Shown here: positions 20,686 through 29,525 of the stretch, in pieces | Numbering within the stretch: the stretch's first letter is position 1 | How the letters are laid out: every line of letters begins with the position of its first letter | Assembly: GCF_018687785.1 (NCBI RefSeq) | Contig: NZ_LTBL01000001.1 | Location: forward strand, 1,045,780 to 1,109,779 | Direction of reading: 5' to 3' | Origin: Methanovulcanius yangii | Lineage (GTDB): Archaea > Halobacteriota > Methanomicrobia > Methanomicrobiales > Methanomicrobiaceae | DNA length: 64,000 nucleotides | The notes under the pieces: model-generated | Seen by the model: the letters and a program-made list of their open reading frames with translations, nothing else | The model's database searches: none | Told to the model about the DNA's origin: nothing | Made by a program: the position numbers and the translations under genes

Positions 20686-21555
20686 ATGGTATTCCATCCC
20701 CCAGTACAAATTATCTCCAAGGTCGGAGACGCTGGTAAGGGCAAGTGTGCCCTTCCGATCTGGAACATGATCCTTCGTGGATTCATGGCAGGCGCATACA
20801 TCGCAATGGGTGCAGCCCTGGCAACCGTCTGTTCGACCGGTGTCGGTGCAATGCTCGGCGCAGGTTTCGGAAAGTTCATCCTCGGTGCAGTGTTCCCCGT
20901 GGGTCTTATTATCATCGTGCTGACGGGCGCTGAGCTCTTCACCGGTGACGCAATGTTTGCCCCCATGGCAGCATTCAAGCACAAAGTCAGCTGGGCAGCT
21001 GTCATGAACCTGTGGATTTGGGTTTACATCGGTAACCTCATCGGTTCTATCGTCTTTGCCTACTTCATGGCCGTCGGTCCCCTCACCTCCTGGTCCGCAG
21101 CAGGTGTCGGCACTGCAACCATCTACGGTGTCACCGCAGTCAACATTGCAGCAGGCAAGGTCAGCTACGTCGGTGCAGCAGCACTCTGGTCCGCATTCAT
21201 CAAAGCTATCTGCTGTAACTGGCTCGTCAACCTCGCAATTCTGCTCGGTATCTGCGCAGATGATGCAATCGGTAAGATCGTTGGTATCTGGTTCCCGATC
21301 ATGGCTTTCGTTTCCACCGGATTCGAGCACTGTGTCGCGAACATGTACTTCATTCCCGCCGGCCTTCTCACCCAGCCCTACCTGACGGCAGACCAGGCAG
21401 CAGGCATCGGCGCAAAACTCGCCAACCTGTCTTGGGTCACCATGTGGACCAACAACATCATCATCGTCACCATCGGCAACATCGTCGGCGGTATGATCTT
21501 TGTTGGAGTACTCTACTGGATCTCATTCAAGAAGGATATCCAGGCACTCGAGTAA
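20686..21555 (+). CDS. fdhC: Formate transporter FdhC (FNT family)
   Basis: 289-residue formate/nitrite-family channel that imports formate. About six hydrophobic segments; family motifs include the GFMAGAYIAMGAALA helix, GAELFTGD (with the constriction-site Thr) and CNWLVNLAI. The starting ATG follows GAGGTGAAATGAAAA. Unlike the fdhCAB arrangement of some methanogens, two small genes separate fdhC from the fdhAB pairs. Codon use is strongly biased, as expected of a highly expressed gene. Confidence 0.96.
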   Translation: MVFHPPVQIISKVGDAGKGKCALPIWNMILRGFMAGAYIAMGAALATVCSTGVGAMLGAGFGKFILGAVFPVGLIIIVLTGAELFTGDAMFAPMAAFKHKVSWAAVMNLWIWVYIGNLIGSIVFAYFMAVGPLTSWSAAGVGTATIYGVTAVNIAAGKVSYVGAAALWSAFIKAICCNWLVNLAILLGICADDAIGKIVGIWFPIMAFVSTGFEHCVANMYFIPAGLLTQPYLTADQAAGIGAKLANLSWVTMWTNNIIIVTIGNIVGGMIFVGVLYWISFKKDIQALE

Positions 21556-21564
21556 CGAATCAGA

Positions 21565-22077
21565 ATGGAAATTAAAGGAACCAGGGTACAGGTTTCGATC
21601 ATCCACATTGTGATGTTCGTGATCTTTACCCTTTTTTTATCGCTGTATGTCGTTCTGACCGGGGATTACGGGACCCTGTTCTGGGGCATTCCGGTGTTGA
21701 TCATGCTCCTCGTCATCCCTATAGTGCTGAACTACATGAGCCGACAGGAATATGATCAGCTGATCCCCTCCTATGAAGCGGAAGCAAAGCTGACACGAAT
21801 CTCTTCGATCAAGCCTGCCGACATTGGAAAGATCGTCAAAATTGAAGGTGTCGTGGAACGTGCACTCTTCAAATCCCTGAATCGCCCCCAATTCATGGTT
21901 GCTGATAAATCAGGGGAAATCTCCGTCAAGATGTTCACCTCTGCATCCGAAGACATCCGCAAGGATGACGTCGTAGAGGTTCTCGGCCAGGTTATCAAAC
22001 GATATGTCGTTGTCGGAGATCCGGTCGTCAATGCAGTGAGCATCAAAAAAATCCGCAAGGATAAAAAGAACAACTGA
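21565..22077 (+). CDS. Membrane-anchored OB-fold protein downstream of fdhC
   Basis: 170 residues: two membrane segments (about residues 10-31 and 38-57) then a soluble domain (residues 75-160). The soluble part reads as an OB fold: IVKIEGVVERALFKS, QFMVADKSGEISVKMF and DVVEVLGQVIKRYVV are the usual five-strand pattern of tRNA_anti/NfeD-like domains. It could be an NfeD-type membrane protein or a nucleic-acid-binding one. It starts nine bases after fdhC and should be co-transcribed, which ties it loosely to formate transport. Function unknown. Confidence 0.75.
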   Translation: MEIKGTRVQVSIIHIVMFVIFTLFLSLYVVLTGDYGTLFWGIPVLIMLLVIPIVLNYMSRQEYDQLIPSYEAEAKLTRISSIKPADIGKIVKIEGVVERALFKSLNRPQFMVADKSGEISVKMFTSASEDIRKDDVVEVLGQVIKRYVVVGDPVVNAVSIKKIRKDKKNN

Positions 22078-22581: not shown

Positions 22582-22829
22582 CCAATTTTTCGTATGCGCG
22601 ACAGGATTTCTGATACAATTTACTGTCAATATTGCAGCAAAATTACCAAGCCCTCACCCAAAAGGTAAATACATATATATTACTTTTTTTGATGAGTAAA
22701 AATACTCCATTTTATCACTCCTTTTTCCAAAAAAAGAGTGAAAAATCGTCATTCCACCATTAATGATCAATTTATACCAATACATTTATGTAAGGTTAAT
22801 GGAAGTTACTTTTGTTAGAGGTATTGATC
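22582..22829 (+). promoter_or_regulatory. Promoter region of the first fdhAB pair
   Basis: 248 AT-rich bases. TATA-like candidates are ACATATATATTAC near 22670-22682 and CAATTTATACC near 22768-22778; the second would start transcription near 22800 and leave a short leader. A hairpin-like pair CACTCCTTTTT / AAAAAGAGTG (about 22720-22742) lies between them. From 22809 the sequence is nearly the same as in front of the second fdhA, including GAGGT and the ATG. Confidence 0.45.
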
Positions 22830-24925
22830 ATGGATATGAAGTACGTTCAGACAACCTGCCCCTACTGTGGGACGGGATGTTCATTCAACCTCGTGGTCAA
22901 AGACGGCAAGGTCGTTGATACCGCACCGTATCACCGCTCCCCCGTCAATGAAGGCAAGATGTGTCCGAAAGGAACCTATGCCCACGAGTTTGTGAACAGA
23001 GAAGACCGGCTTACCGTGCCGCTCATCAAGAAGGACGGCAAGTTTGTGGAAGCCACCTGGGATGAAGCCTACAAGCTCATCGCAGAGAAATTCAAGGGCT
23101 ACAAACCCGACGAGATCGCAGTTCTTTCCTCGGCACGTACCTCCAATGAGGAGAACTACGCACTGATGAAGCTCGCACGCGGTGCATTCAAGACCCGTCA
23201 CATCGACCACTGTGCCCGTCTCTGCCACGCATCGACGGTCGCAGGTCTTGCAGCATCGTTCGGATCCGGTGCAATGACCAACTCCATTGGCGACATCGCC
23301 GAGTCCAAGTGTGTCTTTATTCTCGGGTCCAACACCTTCGAGCAGCACCCCCTCATCGGACGCCGCGTCATGCAGGCAAAGATGAACGGTGCAAAGCTCA
23401 TCTACGCTGACCCCCGATACACCTGTACCGGAAAGCAGGCAGACCTCTACATGCAGTTCCGCTCAGGATCGGATGTTGCCATCCTCAACGGAATGATGCA
23501 GGAGATCATCAAAAACGGATGGGAAGACAAGGAATTCATCGAGTCCAGGGTCAAGGGCTTCGAGGAACTCAAGGCAGAGGTCATGCAGGAGAAGTACTCT
23601 CTCGAGAACGTCGCCAAAATCTCCGGCATTCCCCCCGAACAGCTGAAGCAGGCAACCGAATGGTTTGCAAAGGCTGAGTCCGCCTGTATCCTCTACTCGA
23701 TGGGTATCACCCAGCACACCGTCGGTGTCGACAATGTGAAGTCCGTCGCAAACATCCAGATGCTCACCGGAAACCTCGGCAAGGCCGGCGCCGGTGTCAA
23801 CGCACTGCGTGGACAGAACAATGTGCAGGGAGCCTGCGACATGGGAGCACTCCCGGTCGTCTTTACCGGCTACCAGAAGGTCATCGACCCCGCCGCACAC
23901 CAGAAGTTCGCAGACGGATGGGGATTCCCCGACGGTATCTGTGAAGCCGCGAACGGATACGAAGTCACCACCATGATGGACGTCCTCACCGACAAGCCCG
24001 GTGAACTCAAGGCAATGTACATCATGGGCGAGAACCCGCTCATCTCCGACCCGGACCTCACTCACGTCGAGCATGCATTCGAGGCAATCGAGTTCCTCGT
24101 CGTCCAGGATATCTTCCTGACCGAGACCGCACAGTATGCAGACGTTGTCCTGCCCGCCACCTGCTACGCAGAGAAGGACGGCACCCAGACCTCCACCGAA
24201 CGCCGCGTTCAGATGTGGAGAAAGGCACAGGACCCGCCCGGACAGGCAAAGGTCGACTGGAAGATCATCGCAGAAGTCGGTGCCGCAATGGGCTACCCCG
24301 AGCAGTTCGCATGGGAGTCCGCAGAGGACGTCTTCAACGAGATGGCAGGGCTCACCCCGTCCTACCACGGCATGACCTACGAGCGGCTCAACAAGCCCGA
24401 GGCACTCCACTGGCCATGCCCCACCGAGGAGCACCCCGGCACACCGATCCTGCACATCGGCAAGTTCTCCCACCCCGACGGCATGGGTGTCATGCACGTC
24501 TGTGAGTATAAGCCGCCCGCAGAAGTCCCCGACGAGGAGTACCCGTACATCCTCACCACCGGACGCTGTATCTGGCACTGGCACACCGGTTCCATGACCC
24601 GCCGGTCCGCGACCCTCGACCACGAGGTCCCGACCGGATGGATCGAGATCAACACCGAGGATGCAGCAGCCCTCGGCATCAAGGACAAGGAAGTCGTCAA
24701 GGCAATCACCCGTCGTGGAGAAGTCGAAGTACCTGCAAAGGTCACCGACGAGATCATGAAGGGCGTCATGTTCATGCCGTTCCACTTCGTCGAGTGTGCA
24801 GCAAACAGGCTGACCAACAACGCACTGGACCCAATCGCTAAGATTCCGGAGTTCAAGGCCTGTTCAATCAAAGTTGAAAAGATCCAGGAGGCCTGAAAAT
24901 GGTAGCAAAAGGCGATATGGTATAT
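22809..24925 (+). repeat. Near-identical fdhA repeat, first member
   Basis: About 2.1 kb that recurs at 26197-28313 in the same direction. It begins in the leader at CTTTTGTTAGAGG, covers all of fdhA and stops about 27 bases inside fdhB. By eye I count about 14 base differences, all third-codon and silent; roughly 850 bases in the middle (about 23185-24035) show none. Sequence outside the block is unrelated upstream and only moderately similar downstream. Confidence 0.92.
22830..24896 (+). CDS. fdhA: Formate dehydrogenase alpha subunit, copy 1
   Basis: Catalytic molybdopterin subunit oxidising formate to CO2. 688 residues from ATG 22830 (GAGGT upstream; an in-frame ATG follows two codons later). 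A [4Fe-4S] cluster is bound by Cys10, 13, 17 and 45 (CPYCGTGC ... MCPKGTY). The active site has Cys132 in ARLCHASTVAGL, at the place where selenoproteins have Sec, so this is the Cys form. The molybdopterin domains continue with NPLISDPDL and TGRCIWHWHTGSMTRRSATL. The encoded protein is identical to that of the second copy. The fdhB ATG follows after two bases. Confidence 0.97.
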   Translation: MDMKYVQTTCPYCGTGCSFNLVVKDGKVVDTAPYHRSPVNEGKMCPKGTYAHEFVNREDRLTVPLIKKDGKFVEATWDEAYKLIAEKFKGYKPDEIAVLSSARTSNEENYALMKLARGAFKTRHIDHCARLCHASTVAGLAASFGSGAMTNSIGDIAESKCVFILGSNTFEQHPLIGRRVMQAKMNGAKLIYADPRYTCTGKQADLYMQFRSGSDVAILNGMMQEIIKNGWEDKEFIESRVKGFEELKAEVMQEKYSLENVAKISGIPPEQLKQATEWFAKAESACILYSMGITQHTVGVDNVKSVANIQMLTGNLGKAGAGVNALRGQNNVQGACDMGALPVVFTGYQKVIDPAAHQKFADGWGFPDGICEAANGYEVTTMMDVLTDKPGELKAMYIMGENPLISDPDLTHVEHAFEAIEFLVVQDIFLTETAQYADVVLPATCYAEKDGTQTSTERRVQMWRKAQDPPGQAKVDWKIIAEVGAAMGYPEQFAWESAEDVFNEMAGLTPSYHGMTYERLNKPEALHWPCPTEEHPGTPILHIGKFSHPDGMGVMHVCEYKPPAEVPDEEYPYILTTGRCIWHWHTGSMTRRSATLDHEVPTGWIEINTEDAAALGIKDKEVVKAITRRGEVEVPAKVTDEIMKGVMFMPFHFVECAANRLTNNALDPIAKIPEFKACSIKVEKIQEA

Positions 24926-26053
24926 GCAATGTCCACTGATGCCGAGATTCTTAAGAAGGGCGAGCTTGGTGGCGCCGTCACCGCACTCCAGAAATTCGCC
25001 CTCGAATCCGGCACGGTCAACGCGGTGCTGGCAGTGAAGAAGGGATATGACATCTACGATGCAACCCCTGTCCTCATCAAAGACCCGGCTGAGCTTGCAG
25101 ACACTGCCGGATCCCTCCACTGCGGTACACTGCTCGTCGCCAGCCCCATTAAGAAATATCTTGATGGCGGCAAGGACATGAAGATCGGAGTCACCGTCAA
25201 GGGCTGTGACATGATGGCATTGCTCGAACTCGCAAGACGTGGCTCGGTCAATCTCGACAACATAATAACGATCGGCCTGAACTGTGGTGGATCAGTTAGT
25301 CCTGTCTCCGCCCGAAAGATGATCGCAGACAAGTTCGGAGTCAACCCGGACGATGTGCACAAGGAAGAGATCGACAAAGGCCAGTTCATCATCGAGTACG
25401 GCGATGAGCACAAGGGCATCTCCATCGATGAACTCGAAGAGGAGGGCTACGGCCGCCGGTCCAACTGCCGGCGCTGCAAGTACAAAATCCCGAGAAATGC
25501 TGATCTTGCATGCGGCAACTGGGGTGTCATCGGCGAGAAGGCAGGTAAGGCAACCTTCATCGAAGTCTGCAGCGACAAAGGTGCAGATCTGCTCACCAGG
25601 GCTGTTGCAGCCGGTGTTGTCCAGGTCGAACCAGCCATTCCAAAGGGTGTTGAAATCCGCGGCAAGGTCGAGAATGCCATGCTCAAACTCGGTGAGAAAT
25701 GGCGTACAAATGACTTCAAAAAGCTCAGCAAGGATCTCTGGGGAACAATCAACGAGGAGACCTCCCGCTGTATCAAATGTTACTCCTGTATCGAAAACTG
25801 TCCGGTCTGTTTCAAACTCGCGGATGAACTCAAGGGAGATTCCAAGATGATCACCTCCGGAGAGATCCCGCCAAACCCCATGTTCCACATGCGCCGGTTT
25901 GCACACATCAGTGACACCTGCATCAACTGCGGCCAGTGCCAAGAGCTCTGTCCGATGGACATCCCACTTGCACTCTTCTCCCATGCCATACGGGCAGAAA
26001 GTGATGTGGAATTTGAACCGAAGCTCGGCGAGGGTTCATATAACAACAAATAA
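24899..26053 (+). CDS. fdhB: Formate dehydrogenase beta subunit, copy 1
   Basis: 384-residue iron-sulfur flavoprotein that moves electrons from FdhA to coenzyme F420 or to heterodisulfide reductase complexes. FrhB-like core with VKGCDMMAL, GLNCGGSVSPVSARKMI and NCRRCKYKIP, then two ferredoxin-type clusters at the C-terminus: CIKCYSCIENCPVC and CINCGQCQELCP. ATG 24899 directly follows the fdhA stop. The first eight codons match copy 2; beyond that the two proteins diverge clearly. A T-rich run (CTTTTCTTTTTTG) after the stop probably ends transcription. Confidence 0.95.
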   Translation: MVAKGDMVYAMSTDAEILKKGELGGAVTALQKFALESGTVNAVLAVKKGYDIYDATPVLIKDPAELADTAGSLHCGTLLVASPIKKYLDGGKDMKIGVTVKGCDMMALLELARRGSVNLDNIITIGLNCGGSVSPVSARKMIADKFGVNPDDVHKEEIDKGQFIIEYGDEHKGISIDELEEEGYGRRSNCRRCKYKIPRNADLACGNWGVIGEKAGKATFIEVCSDKGADLLTRAVAAGVVQVEPAIPKGVEIRGKVENAMLKLGEKWRTNDFKKLSKDLWGTINEETSRCIKCYSCIENCPVCFKLADELKGDSKMITSGEIPPNPMFHMRRFAHISDTCINCGQCQELCPMDIPLALFSHAIRAESDVEFEPKLGEGSYNNK

Positions 26054-26217
26054 CTTTTCTTTTTTGTTAACCATTTCAATCTAAATTCATTCTCAATCTA
26101 ATATGAGTTAAATCGACTGAATTTCCATCCTTCCACCGATAATCCTCGTAAATCGGCTGTTAAACACTAGCGTTTAAATAATTCAACATCGAACTCTTTT
26201 TGTTAGAGGTATTGATT
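26054..26217 (+). promoter_or_regulatory. Promoter region of the second fdhAB pair with an inverted repeat
   Basis: 164 AT-rich bases. The perfect inverted repeat TTAAAC-ACTAGC-GTTTAA (26160-26177) overlaps the best TATA candidate CGTTTAAATAATTC. Its centre is about 50 bases before the fdhA ATG, so a bound regulator would block the transcription factors. The first copy has no matching palindrome, which would let the two operons be controlled differently. An AACGTTTAA-like half lies upstream of fdhC. Confidence 0.5.
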
Positions 26218-28313
26218 ATGGACATGAAATACGTTCAGACAACCTGCCCCTACTGTGGGACAGGATGTTCGTTCAACCTCGTGGTCAAAGACGGCAAGGT
26301 CGTAGATACAGCACCGTATCACCGCTCCCCCGTCAATGAAGGCAAGATGTGTCCGAAAGGAACCTATGCCCACGAGTTTGTGAACAGAGAAGACCGGCTT
26401 ACCGTGCCGCTCATCAAGAAGGACGGCAAGTTTGTGGAAGCCACCTGGGATGAAGCCTACAAGCTCATCGCAGAGAAATTCAAGGGCTACAAACCCGACG
26501 AGATCGCAGTCCTTTCCTCGGCACGTACCTCCAATGAGGAGAACTACGCGCTGATGAAGCTCGCACGCGGTGCATTCAAGACCCGTCACATCGACCACTG
26601 TGCCCGTCTCTGCCACGCATCGACGGTCGCAGGTCTTGCAGCATCGTTCGGATCCGGTGCAATGACCAACTCCATTGGCGACATCGCCGAGTCCAAGTGT
26701 GTCTTTATTCTCGGGTCCAACACCTTCGAGCAGCACCCCCTCATCGGACGCCGCGTCATGCAGGCAAAGATGAACGGTGCAAAGCTCATCTACGCTGACC
26801 CCCGATACACCTGTACCGGAAAGCAGGCAGACCTCTACATGCAGTTCCGCTCAGGATCGGATGTTGCCATCCTCAACGGAATGATGCAGGAGATCATCAA
26901 AAACGGATGGGAAGACAAGGAATTCATCGAGTCCAGGGTCAAGGGCTTCGAGGAACTCAAGGCAGAGGTCATGCAGGAGAAGTACTCTCTCGAGAACGTC
27001 GCCAAAATCTCCGGCATTCCCCCCGAACAGCTGAAGCAGGCAACCGAATGGTTTGCAAAGGCTGAGTCCGCCTGTATCCTCTACTCGATGGGTATCACCC
27101 AGCACACCGTCGGTGTCGACAATGTGAAGTCCGTCGCAAACATCCAGATGCTCACCGGAAACCTCGGCAAGGCCGGCGCCGGTGTCAACGCACTGCGTGG
27201 ACAGAACAATGTGCAGGGAGCCTGCGACATGGGAGCACTCCCGGTCGTCTTTACCGGCTACCAGAAGGTCATCGACCCCGCCGCACACCAGAAGTTCGCA
27301 GACGGATGGGGATTCCCCGACGGTATCTGTGAAGCCGCGAACGGATACGAAGTCACCACCATGATGGACGTCCTCACCGACAAGCCCGGTGAACTCAAGG
27401 CAATGTACATCATGGGCGAGAACCCGCTCATCTCCGATCCGGACCTCACCCACGTCGAGCACGCATTCGAGGCAATCGAGTTCCTCGTCGTCCAGGATAT
27501 CTTCCTGACCGAGACCGCACAGTATGCAGACGTTGTCCTGCCCGCCACCTGCTACGCAGAGAAGGACGGCACCCAGACCTCCACCGAACGCCGCGTTCAG
27601 ATGTGGAGAAAGGCACAGGACCCGCCCGGACAGGCAAAGGTCGACTGGAAGATCATCGCAGAAGTCGGTGCCGCAATGGGCTACCCCGAGCAGTTCGCAT
27701 GGGAGTCCGCAGAGGACGTCTTCAACGAGATGGCAGGGCTCACCCCGTCCTACCACGGCATGACCTACGAGCGGCTCAACAAGCCCGAGGCACTCCACTG
27801 GCCCTGCCCCACCGAGGAGCACCCCGGCACACCGATCCTGCACATCGGCAAGTTCTCCCACCCCGACGGCATGGGTGTCATGCACGTCTGTGAGTACAAG
27901 CCGCCCGCAGAAGTCCCCGACGAGGAGTACCCGTACATCCTCACCACCGGACGCTGTATCTGGCACTGGCACACCGGTTCCATGACCCGCCGGTCCGCGA
28001 CCCTCGACCACGAGGTCCCGACCGGATGGATCGAGATCAACACCGAGGATGCAGCAGCCCTCGGCATCAAGGACAAGGAAGTCGTCAAGGCAATCACCCG
28101 TCGTGGAGAAGTCGAAGTGCCTGCAAAGGTCACCGACGAGATCATGAAGGGCGTCATGTTCATGCCGTTCCACTTCGTCGAGTGTGCAGCAAACAGGCTG
28201 ACCAACAACGCACTGGACCCAATCGCTAAGATTCCGGAGTTCAAGGCCTGTTCAATCAAAGTTGAAAAGATCCAGGAGGCCTGAAAATGGTAGCAAAAGG
28301 CGATATGGTATAC
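26197..28313 (+). repeat. Near-identical fdhA repeat, second member
   Basis: Second member of the direct repeat starting at 22809. Same limits: from CTTTTTGTTAGAGG in the leader to about codon 9 of fdhB. Silent differences cluster in the first 350 bases and again after about position 27435, flanking a fully identical centre, the profile expected of a gene-conversion tract. Confidence 0.92.
26218..28284 (+). CDS. fdhA: Formate dehydrogenase alpha subunit, copy 2
   Basis: 688 residues, the same protein as copy 1: [4Fe-4S] cysteines 10, 13, 17 and 45, active-site Cys132 instead of Sec, and both molybdopterin-binding domains. Start ATG 26218 with GAGGT upstream. Only silent base changes separate the two genes. 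The different upstream region and different FdhB partner suggest that the second pair serves another condition or electron acceptor while sharing the same catalytic subunit. Confidence 0.97.
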   Translation: MDMKYVQTTCPYCGTGCSFNLVVKDGKVVDTAPYHRSPVNEGKMCPKGTYAHEFVNREDRLTVPLIKKDGKFVEATWDEAYKLIAEKFKGYKPDEIAVLSSARTSNEENYALMKLARGAFKTRHIDHCARLCHASTVAGLAASFGSGAMTNSIGDIAESKCVFILGSNTFEQHPLIGRRVMQAKMNGAKLIYADPRYTCTGKQADLYMQFRSGSDVAILNGMMQEIIKNGWEDKEFIESRVKGFEELKAEVMQEKYSLENVAKISGIPPEQLKQATEWFAKAESACILYSMGITQHTVGVDNVKSVANIQMLTGNLGKAGAGVNALRGQNNVQGACDMGALPVVFTGYQKVIDPAAHQKFADGWGFPDGICEAANGYEVTTMMDVLTDKPGELKAMYIMGENPLISDPDLTHVEHAFEAIEFLVVQDIFLTETAQYADVVLPATCYAEKDGTQTSTERRVQMWRKAQDPPGQAKVDWKIIAEVGAAMGYPEQFAWESAEDVFNEMAGLTPSYHGMTYERLNKPEALHWPCPTEEHPGTPILHIGKFSHPDGMGVMHVCEYKPPAEVPDEEYPYILTTGRCIWHWHTGSMTRRSATLDHEVPTGWIEINTEDAAALGIKDKEVVKAITRRGEVEVPAKVTDEIMKGVMFMPFHFVECAANRLTNNALDPIAKIPEFKACSIKVEKIQEA

Positions 28314-29525
28314 GCATCCGCAGCCGATGCAGCAATATGCGAGAAAGGCGAATGCGGTGGCGCGGTTACGGCCCTCCTCAAATACGCTCTTGAGAGTGGC
28401 ATGGTCGACGCGGTTCTCGCAGTGAAGAAGGGCTACGATGTCTTCGATGCAACACCCGTCATCATTACCAACCCCGAAGAGATTGCACAGACGGCAGGAT
28501 CTCTTCACTGTGGTACCGTGCTCCTTCCGAAACTCATCAAGAAGTACCTTGACGGTGCACGCAATGAAAAACTTGCAATCACGCTCAAGGGCTGTGACGC
28601 AAAGGCAATGTACGAACTTGCCAAGAGGAACCAGATCAACCTCGACAATGTCGTGATGATCGGTCTCAACTGTGGTGGTTCGGTTGCACCTGTCAGCGCA
28701 CGCAAGATGATCACCGAGAAGTTCGGCATCAACCCCGACGATGTCGTCAAAGAGGAGATCGACAAAGGCCAGTTCATCGTCATCACCAAAGACGGCGAAC
28801 ACAAGGGCATCTCCATCGATGACCTCGAGGAAGAAGGATACGGACGCCGTGCAAACTGCCAGCGCTGTAAGACGAAGGTCCCCCGCCAGTGTGATGTAGC
28901 ATGTGGTAACTGGGGTGTCATCGGCGACAAGGCCGGCAAGGCAACCTTCATCGAAGTCTGCAGCGACAAGGGTGCAGCCCTCGTCGACGGAGCAGTCAAG
29001 GCCGGTGCACTCGCTACCGAGGCACCCATCCCCAAGGGCATTGAAATTCGTGGCAAGGTCGAAAACGCCATGCTCAAACTCGCTGACAAGCACCGTGCAG
29101 CACAGTTCGGCGCACTCGGCGAGAGCGAGGACCGCCTCAAGTTCATCATGGACGAGACCTCCCGCTGTATCAAATGTTACTCCTGTATCGAGAACTGCCC
29201 CATCTGCTACTGTGTCGAGTGTTCCACCAAGAAACCACACCTCGTCACTCCGGGTCAGGTTCCGCCTCCCTTCATGTTCCACCTGATCAGGTTCTCCCAC
29301 ATATCGGACTCCTGTATCAACTGTGGGCAGTGCGAAGAACTCTGTGCAATGGACATTCCGAACTCACTCTTCATGCACTCCCTCCAGGTTGAGATGGAGA
29401 AGATGTTCGGATTCACCCCTGGTGTCAACATGGATCTCCCGGTCCTCGCCCTCGTGGAGGAGCCGACCGAGCGCAAGCGTCTCAGCGACACCGGCGACGA
29501 TCAGATCTTCGACATCTTCCAATAA
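28287..29525 (+). CDS. fdhB: Formate dehydrogenase beta subunit, copy 2
   Basis: 412 residues, 28 longer than copy 1, mostly at the C-terminus (VEMEKMFGFTPGVNMDL onward). The same layout: FrhB-like flavin/F420 core with LKGCDAKAM, GLNCGGSVAPVSARKMI and NCQRCKTKVP, then CIKCYSCIENCPIC and CINCGQCEELC clusters. Cluster 1 is followed by an extra pair of Cys (CYCVECS) absent from copy 1. By eye about two thirds of residues match copy 1. A long T-run right after the stop looks like a terminator. Confidence 0.95.
   Translation: MVAKGDMVYASAADAAICEKGECGGAVTALLKYALESGMVDAVLAVKKGYDVFDATPVIITNPEEIAQTAGSLHCGTVLLPKLIKKYLDGARNEKLAITLKGCDAKAMYELAKRNQINLDNVVMIGLNCGGSVAPVSARKMITEKFGINPDDVVKEEIDKGQFIVITKDGEHKGISIDDLEEEGYGRRANCQRCKTKVPRQCDVACGNWGVIGDKAGKATFIEVCSDKGAALVDGAVKAGALATEAPIPKGIEIRGKVENAMLKLADKHRAAQFGALGESEDRLKFIMDETSRCIKCYSCIENCPICYCVECSTKKPHLVTPGQVPPPFMFHLIRFSHISDSCINCGQCEELCAMDIPNSLFMHSLQVEMEKMFGFTPGVNMDLPVLALVEEPTERKRLSDTGDDQIFDIFQ

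Follow-up and report, generated by a model that had tools for sequence, protein, structure and literature searches.

Homogenized fdhA copies beside diverged fdhB isoforms in a tandem formate dehydrogenase array of Methanovulcanius yangii and its relatives

Methanovulcanius yangii, a methanogen that by its FdhA relatives sits near Methanogenium, inside the Methanomicrobiales, carries in its 2.29-Mb genome (two contigs) a tandem array of two formate dehydrogenase operons. The catalytic genes of the two operons are nearly the same, while their partner genes and leaders are not. How did such a patchwork arise, and what keeps its parts alike or apart? We analyzed a 64,000-nucleotide stretch of DNA that contains the array, called the window here (Table 1), and compared it with related loci from other genomes.

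The array encodes both full-length FdhA proteins and both close FdhB proteins of the genome; the remaining matches are weak (25 to 33% identity). FdhA scores 875.9 bits against TIGR01591 (cut-off, 666.25) and matches the formate dehydrogenases 9t1s_L and 7bkb_D in the PDB, while the top PDB match of FdhB2 is 7bkb_E, a formate dehydrogenase beta subunit (656 bits). As judged by TIGR01591 and the FrhB/FdhB domains, FdhA and both FdhB proteins fit the F420-dependent formate dehydrogenase FdhAB. A TTG-started frame of fdhA1 opens at 22812. The gene order upstream of the array is conserved (synteny) in Methanogenium marinum (G107), in a congener of M. yangii (G115), in a Methanogenium-group genome (G037), and in genomes G075 and G049. 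On the 3' side of the array lies a 5S-23S-tRNA-16S cluster on the opposite strand. The name nfeD was dropped for the gene at 21565-22077, for which family searches gave only weak OB-fold matches below cut-off. Minus-strand frames of 440 aa run antisense to both fdhA copies (23463-24785 and 26851-28173) and are probably an effect of codon bias.

Table 1. Features of the tandem fdhAB array, with coordinates of the window
Feature	Position	Strand	Remarks
Formate/nitrite transporter gene (fdhC-like), 5' of array	20686..21555	+	PF01226, 258.8 bits
Leader 1, diverged	22582..22809	+	
Homogenized block, copy 1: ribosome-binding region, fdhA1, first 26 bases of fdhB1	22810..24924	+	
fdhA1, F420-dependent formate dehydrogenase catalytic subunit	22830..24896	+	ATG start, 688 aa
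fdhB1, F420/FAD/Fe-S subunit, isoform 1	24899..26053	+	384 aa; PF04432 and PF04422 above cut-off
Leader 2, old leader class	26054..26197	+	
Homogenized block, copy 2	26198..28312	+	
fdhA2	26218..28284	+	Protein equals FdhA1, residue for residue
fdhB2, isoform 2	28287..29525	+	412 aa; PF04432 and PF04422 above cut-off

From 22810/26198 to 24924/28312, at an offset of 3388, the copies differ by 15 mismatches, of which 14 fall at silent third positions of the 688-residue frame (ATG at 22830/26218) and one at -1 (22829). A preliminary description of this DNA, made by eye, had counted about 14 silent differences and the same protein over 688 residues; both statements hold, as none of the 15 mismatches changes a residue. 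The overall identity of the fdhA pair is 99.3%. Both edges are as sharp as described there, in the leader (22809/26197) and about 27 bases into fdhB: the 20 bases before the ATG match and -21 is mismatched, and 26 bases of fdhB are identical with base 27 mismatched. From -200 to -27, leaders 1 and 2 align no better than shuffled sequences (z = -0.5 and -0.6), and fdhB1 and fdhB2 share 69.6% DNA and 65.5% protein identity. The homogeneity of the fdhA pair extends to silent sites, with 324 of 333 4-fold sites identical (97.3%) versus 61 of 111 (55.0%) for the fdhB pair.

These silent sites bear on the idea that strong purifying selection on FdhA, combined with codon bias, has held the copies together without recombination. 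FdhA is indeed conserved, and a comparison of the window with G115 gives 75 to 81% 4-fold identity for the fdh and transporter genes versus 41 to 48% for three neighboring genes. Orthologous fdhA genes nevertheless differ at 25% of 4-fold sites (G115) or at about half of them (M. marinum), as opposed to 2.7% for the two copies, which refutes this account and leaves it a negligible probability. There is also a very small chance that the assembly placed one fdhA consensus twice. The pair is known from the assembled contig alone, and the longest identical run (roughly 850 bases in the first estimate, 887 bp by measurement, 23163-24049) is central and farthest from the unique flanks, so that the identity of these 887 bp may be inflated by assembly. 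However, 15 differences were retained, spaced no more than 342 bp apart beyond that run, and both copies have unique flanks. Moreover, two 23S rRNA places identical over 1001 bp were kept separate in the same contig, and FdhA proteins pair within genomes in other assemblies too, as well as at loci that lie on separate contigs.

If the fdhAB operon had been duplicated once and recently, with one fdhB and one leader then diverging fast, tandem copies and identical FdhA proteins would result. The preliminary description had argued that such a duplication fails to explain the diverged fdhB genes, and phylogeny bears this out. We inferred quick LG+G4 trees, in which single branches need caution, from 70 FdhA-FdhB pairs encoded side by side, of which 13 tandem genomes supplied 26 and other loci 44. 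Tandem genomes number at least 13, being those examined among the matches listed; 36 loci were hand-picked for the trees, from which the third fdhAB copy of Methanoculleus sp. FWC-SCC1 (G120) was omitted, and arrays cut by contig ends (e.g., L031, L035, L037, L054, L105, and L114) were left out of the pair statistics. The FdhB tree, which covers several families of the order, separates 24 B1 from 46 B2 sequences by a single split (SH-aLRT 100). The FdhB1 proteins of the window and M. marinum share 89% identity, versus 65.5% for FdhB1 and FdhB2 within the window, and a clade of the two FdhB proteins of one genome was rejected both for the window (AU p = 1.8e-38) and for M. marinum (AU p = 4e-10). 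Leader 2 is likewise common across genera, that of the window matching leader 2 of M. marinum (z = 25) and of G111 (z = 29). Leader 1 of the window is weakly related to leader 1 of M. marinum (z = 6), and the leaders of G091, G007, and G127 fit neither leader class clearly. The single B1/B2 split and the shared leader 2 place the duplication before the species compared; as paralogues, B1 and B2 predate the genera. A recent operon duplication is refuted by the FdhB tree and leader 2, and we assign it practically no weight.

The contrast between the FdhB and FdhA trees is large. On the FdhA tree of the same 70 loci, the identity of the partner (B1 or B2) changes 15 times, at least 13 of the changes being forced by starred branches; shuffled labels gave a mean of 20.2 changes, and 2 to 3 of 500 shuffles were as low as 15, so the partner label is still somewhat clustered on the FdhA tree. 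These counts hold for the sample described above. Grouping FdhA1 of the 13 tandem genomes into one clade was rejected (p-AU 9.8e-8) even with the identical window and M. marinum pairs left free. Instead, FdhA proteins of one genome are sisters, on starred branches or by identity, in the window, M. marinum, FWC-SCC1, M. taiwanensis, M. chunghsingensis, and Methanolinea LCB019-065, and also in G111 (support of 90, unstarred).

Comparison of the near-identical pairs indicates that they were homogenized separately. The fdhA pair of M. marinum is identical in protein and 99.8% identical in DNA, and between M. marinum and the window the identities are 83% for FdhA, 89% for B1, and 87% for B2. Because FdhA is 100% identical within either genome but 83% between them, while the FdhB orthologues are closer and the B1/B2 order is common to both, the two genomes must have undergone homogenization independently. 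The last such event in the window was later than the split from its congener G115, as the 4-fold identity of fdhA between these two is only 75%.

The tracts of other relatives have different limits. In FWC-SCC1, 1981 identical columns run from about +150 of fdhA to +62 of fdhB, so that the 5' edge falls within fdhA, and the 5' stretch is about 76% identical. G008 has identical blocks of 469 and 62 bases inside fdhA and mostly 68 to 94% identity elsewhere. Three loci (L110, L079, and L083) join leader 2 and about 150 bases of type-2 fdhA to a mostly type-1 body and then to fdhB2; no FdhB above 68% identity to FdhB1 was found in these assemblies, which may be incomplete. Tract edges inside homologous sequence are thus present in all five cases. 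The comparison with fdhA pairs of relatives that had been proposed at the outset did not reveal the limits of a single duplication: B1 and B2 predate the genera, yet in several lineages the FdhA proteins pair within the genome. The edges of identity are not constant, lying at -20/+26 for the window pair and -17/+31 for that of M. marinum, at the points given above for FWC-SCC1, and inside the gene in G008. This variation led us to discard a fixed-site mechanism.

Patchiness is widespread among the tandem pairs. A run-permutation test on variable third positions gave p values of at most 0.008 in 11 of 13 pairs; 8 of these 11 pass the Bonferroni threshold of 0.0038, which the window (p = 0.0052), G034, and G096 do not. 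The test was not significant for M. marinum (p = 0.36), whose pair is nearly uniform and leaves little to test, or for G111 (p = 0.29). Homogenization itself is not general, and conversion is episodic. By DNA identity, three tandem pairs are nearly identical (98.1 to 99.8%), one is partly converted (88.1%), and nine lie at 83.5 to 86.2%. The earlier wording that the genes are "kept identical" is too strong as a rule, 9 of 13 tandem pairs having diverged with at most short identical patches. Most other tandem pairs also fail to show greater likeness within the genome than between orthologues. In eight g12 (Methanoculleus-type) pairs, 4-fold identity is 66 to 71% for fdhA versus 62 to 68% for fdhB, and this near equality likewise argues against general homogenization. 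Conversion is not confined to tandem copies, either. In three of eight genomes examined whose operons lie apart, the fdhA genes are 96.9%, 96.2%, and 92.9% identical versus 69 to 73% for fdhB; the other five display no homogenization (fdhA, 71 to 84%). In two Methanocalculus species (L048/L056 and L089/L091), fdhA identity is 96 to 97% and fdhB identity 69 to 71%, with the loci on different contigs.

Did the window pair itself undergo more than one event? A single recent whole-gene conversion in this lineage, with no repeated process there, is a minority reading that we regard as unlikely. The 99.3% identity could reflect one event and later silent changes, and the window taken by itself also fits one late whole-gene event with older edges. 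On the other hand, the 14 third-position mismatches are clustered, 6 of them within 31 codons at the 5' end (p = 0.001), and they leave a mismatch-free gap of 296 codons (p = 0.005), as is expected where a younger tract sits inside an older one. Independent homogenization in M. marinum and FWC-SCC1 and the patches found elsewhere also mean that the process recurs in the order. Polarizing the 15 mismatches with G115, G037, G075, G049, G111, and M. marinum did not reveal a consistent direction; depending on the site, G115 sides with copy 1 or with copy 2, and at two sites it agrees with neither. Repeated conversion limited to fdhA, as first suggested for this locus, thus stands as the best reading by virtue of independent homogenization across genomes: the repetition is established by the cross-genome comparison and is suggested by the clustered differences of the window.

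Several relatives appear to have lost the tandem arrangement. At the corresponding place, G037, G075, G049, and G115 possess a single fdhA-fdhB2, and their best matches to FdhB1 reach 65 to 68%, the level of FdhB2. Leaders of this single locus match leader 1 of M. marinum in G037 (z = 52), G075 (z = 20), and G049 (z = 60) and do not match its leader 2 (z = 1.5, 2.5, and 0.5, respectively). The leader of G115 matches leader 1 of the window, the weakest match of the four (z = 13.8), versus z = 1.2 for leader 2. The assemblies of G037 and G075 consist of one contig each; those of G115 and G049 are split into about 290 and 150 contigs, respectively, and could lack an fdhB1 located elsewhere. The simplest account of these leader1-fdhA-fdhB2 loci is recombination of fdhA1 with fdhA2 that deleted fdhB1 and leader 2. 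The FdhB2 tree joins M. marinum to G049 (97, starred), so that more than one collapse of the pair is likely; gain of the M. marinum tandem by transfer is less likely.

The locus of G037 (L128, G037:C1:1038000-1052000; one contig, 99% complete) is also informative about exchange between genera. Its FdhA is 93 to 94% identical to those of the window and G115 and 82 to 85% identical to those of G075, G049, and M. marinum, while the Methanogenium type is seen in its FdhB2, carbonic anhydrase, ATPase, transporter, and OB-fold gene. Judged by the sites that distinguish the two groups, the leader resembles Methanogenium, as for the most part does fdhB2; between them, fdhA is largely of the window type from about +100 to +2000, and mixed stretches occur. 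Identity at 4-fold sites to the genus of the window is 67 to 74% for fdhA versus 53 to 55% for fdhB2. Sorting of old paralogues could yield the same topology but does not predict an fdhA gene closer than the FdhB2 gene. The pattern points to replacement of fdhA alone by the type found in the window's genus, and replacement of fdhA between genera probably happens. Could both copies in the window, then, have been replaced by the same incoming fdhA of another species rather than by each other? The G037 locus, in which a window-genus fdhA is flanked by the native leader and fdhB2, lends this idea some plausibility. It would take two events in one genome, however, and the closest outside FdhA among the matches listed, from 150 genomes, is 94% identical versus 100% between the copies, which makes it very improbable. 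Replacement can combine with conversion if a replaced copy then converts the other.

We therefore consider it very probable that recombination between old tandem fdhA copies homogenizes fdhA while the fdhB isoforms and leaders stay diverged. It builds on the old fdhB split, the independent homogenization of fdhA, the variable tract edges, and the hybrid loci, all of which are seen in the genomes compared. In this reading the locus is a tandem array of long standing, leader1-fdhA1-fdhB1-leader2-fdhA2-fdhB2, whose two FdhB isoforms, split before the compared families diverged, each follow a copy of one catalytic gene. One fdhA copy (about 2.1 kb, lying 3.4 kb from the other) would be overwritten by the other through homologous recombination, putatively non-reciprocal. 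The exchange would fade with homology, on one side in the diverged leader and on the other within a few dozen bases of the start of fdhB (about 70% identity). Conversion running into fdhB was probably removed by selection, since the isoforms differ in fixed residues, and selection may thus be the cause of the lasting limits. A crossover or deletion outcome of the same recombination would give the collapsed leader1-fdhA-fdhB2 loci.

The fixed differences between the isoforms are distinct. An extra cysteine pair (C309/C312) is present in all 46 B2 sequences and none of the 24 B1 sequences, and a C-terminal tail motif, read to the stop codon, in 45 of 46 (one B2 runs off its contig) and none of 24. 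FdhB2 of the window has both, as does its top match, the FdhB of the M. hungatei complex of formate dehydrogenase, heterodisulfide reductase, and formylmethanofuran dehydrogenase (PDB 7bkb-7bke; PMC12350162), whereas FdhB1 lacks the pair and the tail. These differences suggest that one catalytic subunit may serve two electron outputs, with different acceptors for the two isoforms. An identical FdhA might be useful since both FdhB partners must fit the same surface, but recombination may just as well produce this identity as a neutral side effect.

Conversion between tandem paralogues in the Methanomicrobiales has been published for mtrA (PMC4632066). mtrA resembles fdhA in that old tandem paralogues of the same methanogen order have one part homogenized and another kept different, with identity within the genome exceeding that between orthologues. 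The diverged part of mtrA is the transmembrane domain, so that its limit lies inside one gene, between domains, whereas that of fdhA lies between two subunit genes; unlike mtrA, fdhA is homogenized in some lineages only. A survey (PMC6053082) lists 26 prokaryotic genes with long-lasting recurrent concerted evolution, taken as a pattern in at least five species. Its seven archaeal genes, all from methanogens, are mtmB, mtmC, mtbB, mtbC, mtrA, glnB, and archaeal histone. The process is of the same kind in those cases, with paralogues clustering within species and genes for complexes of energy metabolism involved; fdhA is not among the archaeal entries, and neither "formate" nor "fdh" appears in the main text. 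Our within-genome sister counts come from the quick FdhA tree rather than from the pipeline of that survey. A Methanospirillum region with fdhA1B1 and fdhA2B2 is on record (PMC11346949), and the open-access literature searched yielded no published report of fdhA conversion or concerted evolution in methanogens. Against that literature, fdhA as a further case, the limit at the level of subunits, and the linked collapse and between-genus replacement appear to be new.

If this holds true, a formate-metabolism gene would join the few prokaryotic genes listed as undergoing recurrent conversion. One subunit homogenized beside a neighbor left apart makes it testable whether homology decay or selection halts conversion at the border between the genes, and how the FdhB isoforms differ in handling electrons from a shared catalytic subunit. 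A further caution is that FdhA trees fail to follow operon or species history in the Methanomicrobiales. A wider view, to which we give even chances, is that fdhA of this order acts as an exchangeable cassette that is repeatedly overwritten, by copies from paralogous operons, whether in tandem or not, and now and then by those of other genera. The leader and the start of fdhB would set the limits, while the two electron-output subunits, FdhB1 and FdhB2, stay apart. The cost would be that recombination of like copies deletes fdhB1 and leader 2, from which the repeated leader1-fdhA-fdhB2 loci would follow.

Two further arrangements of fdhA were observed. FWC-SCC1 carries a third fdhA-fdhB unit 3' of its tandem pair (L116, 10939-14258), with an FdhA 72% identical to that of the window. 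In a locus of group g6 (G119:C231:18640-20319), a degenerate fdhA-like stretch with three TGA codons and one TAG lies just 5' of an intact fdhA.
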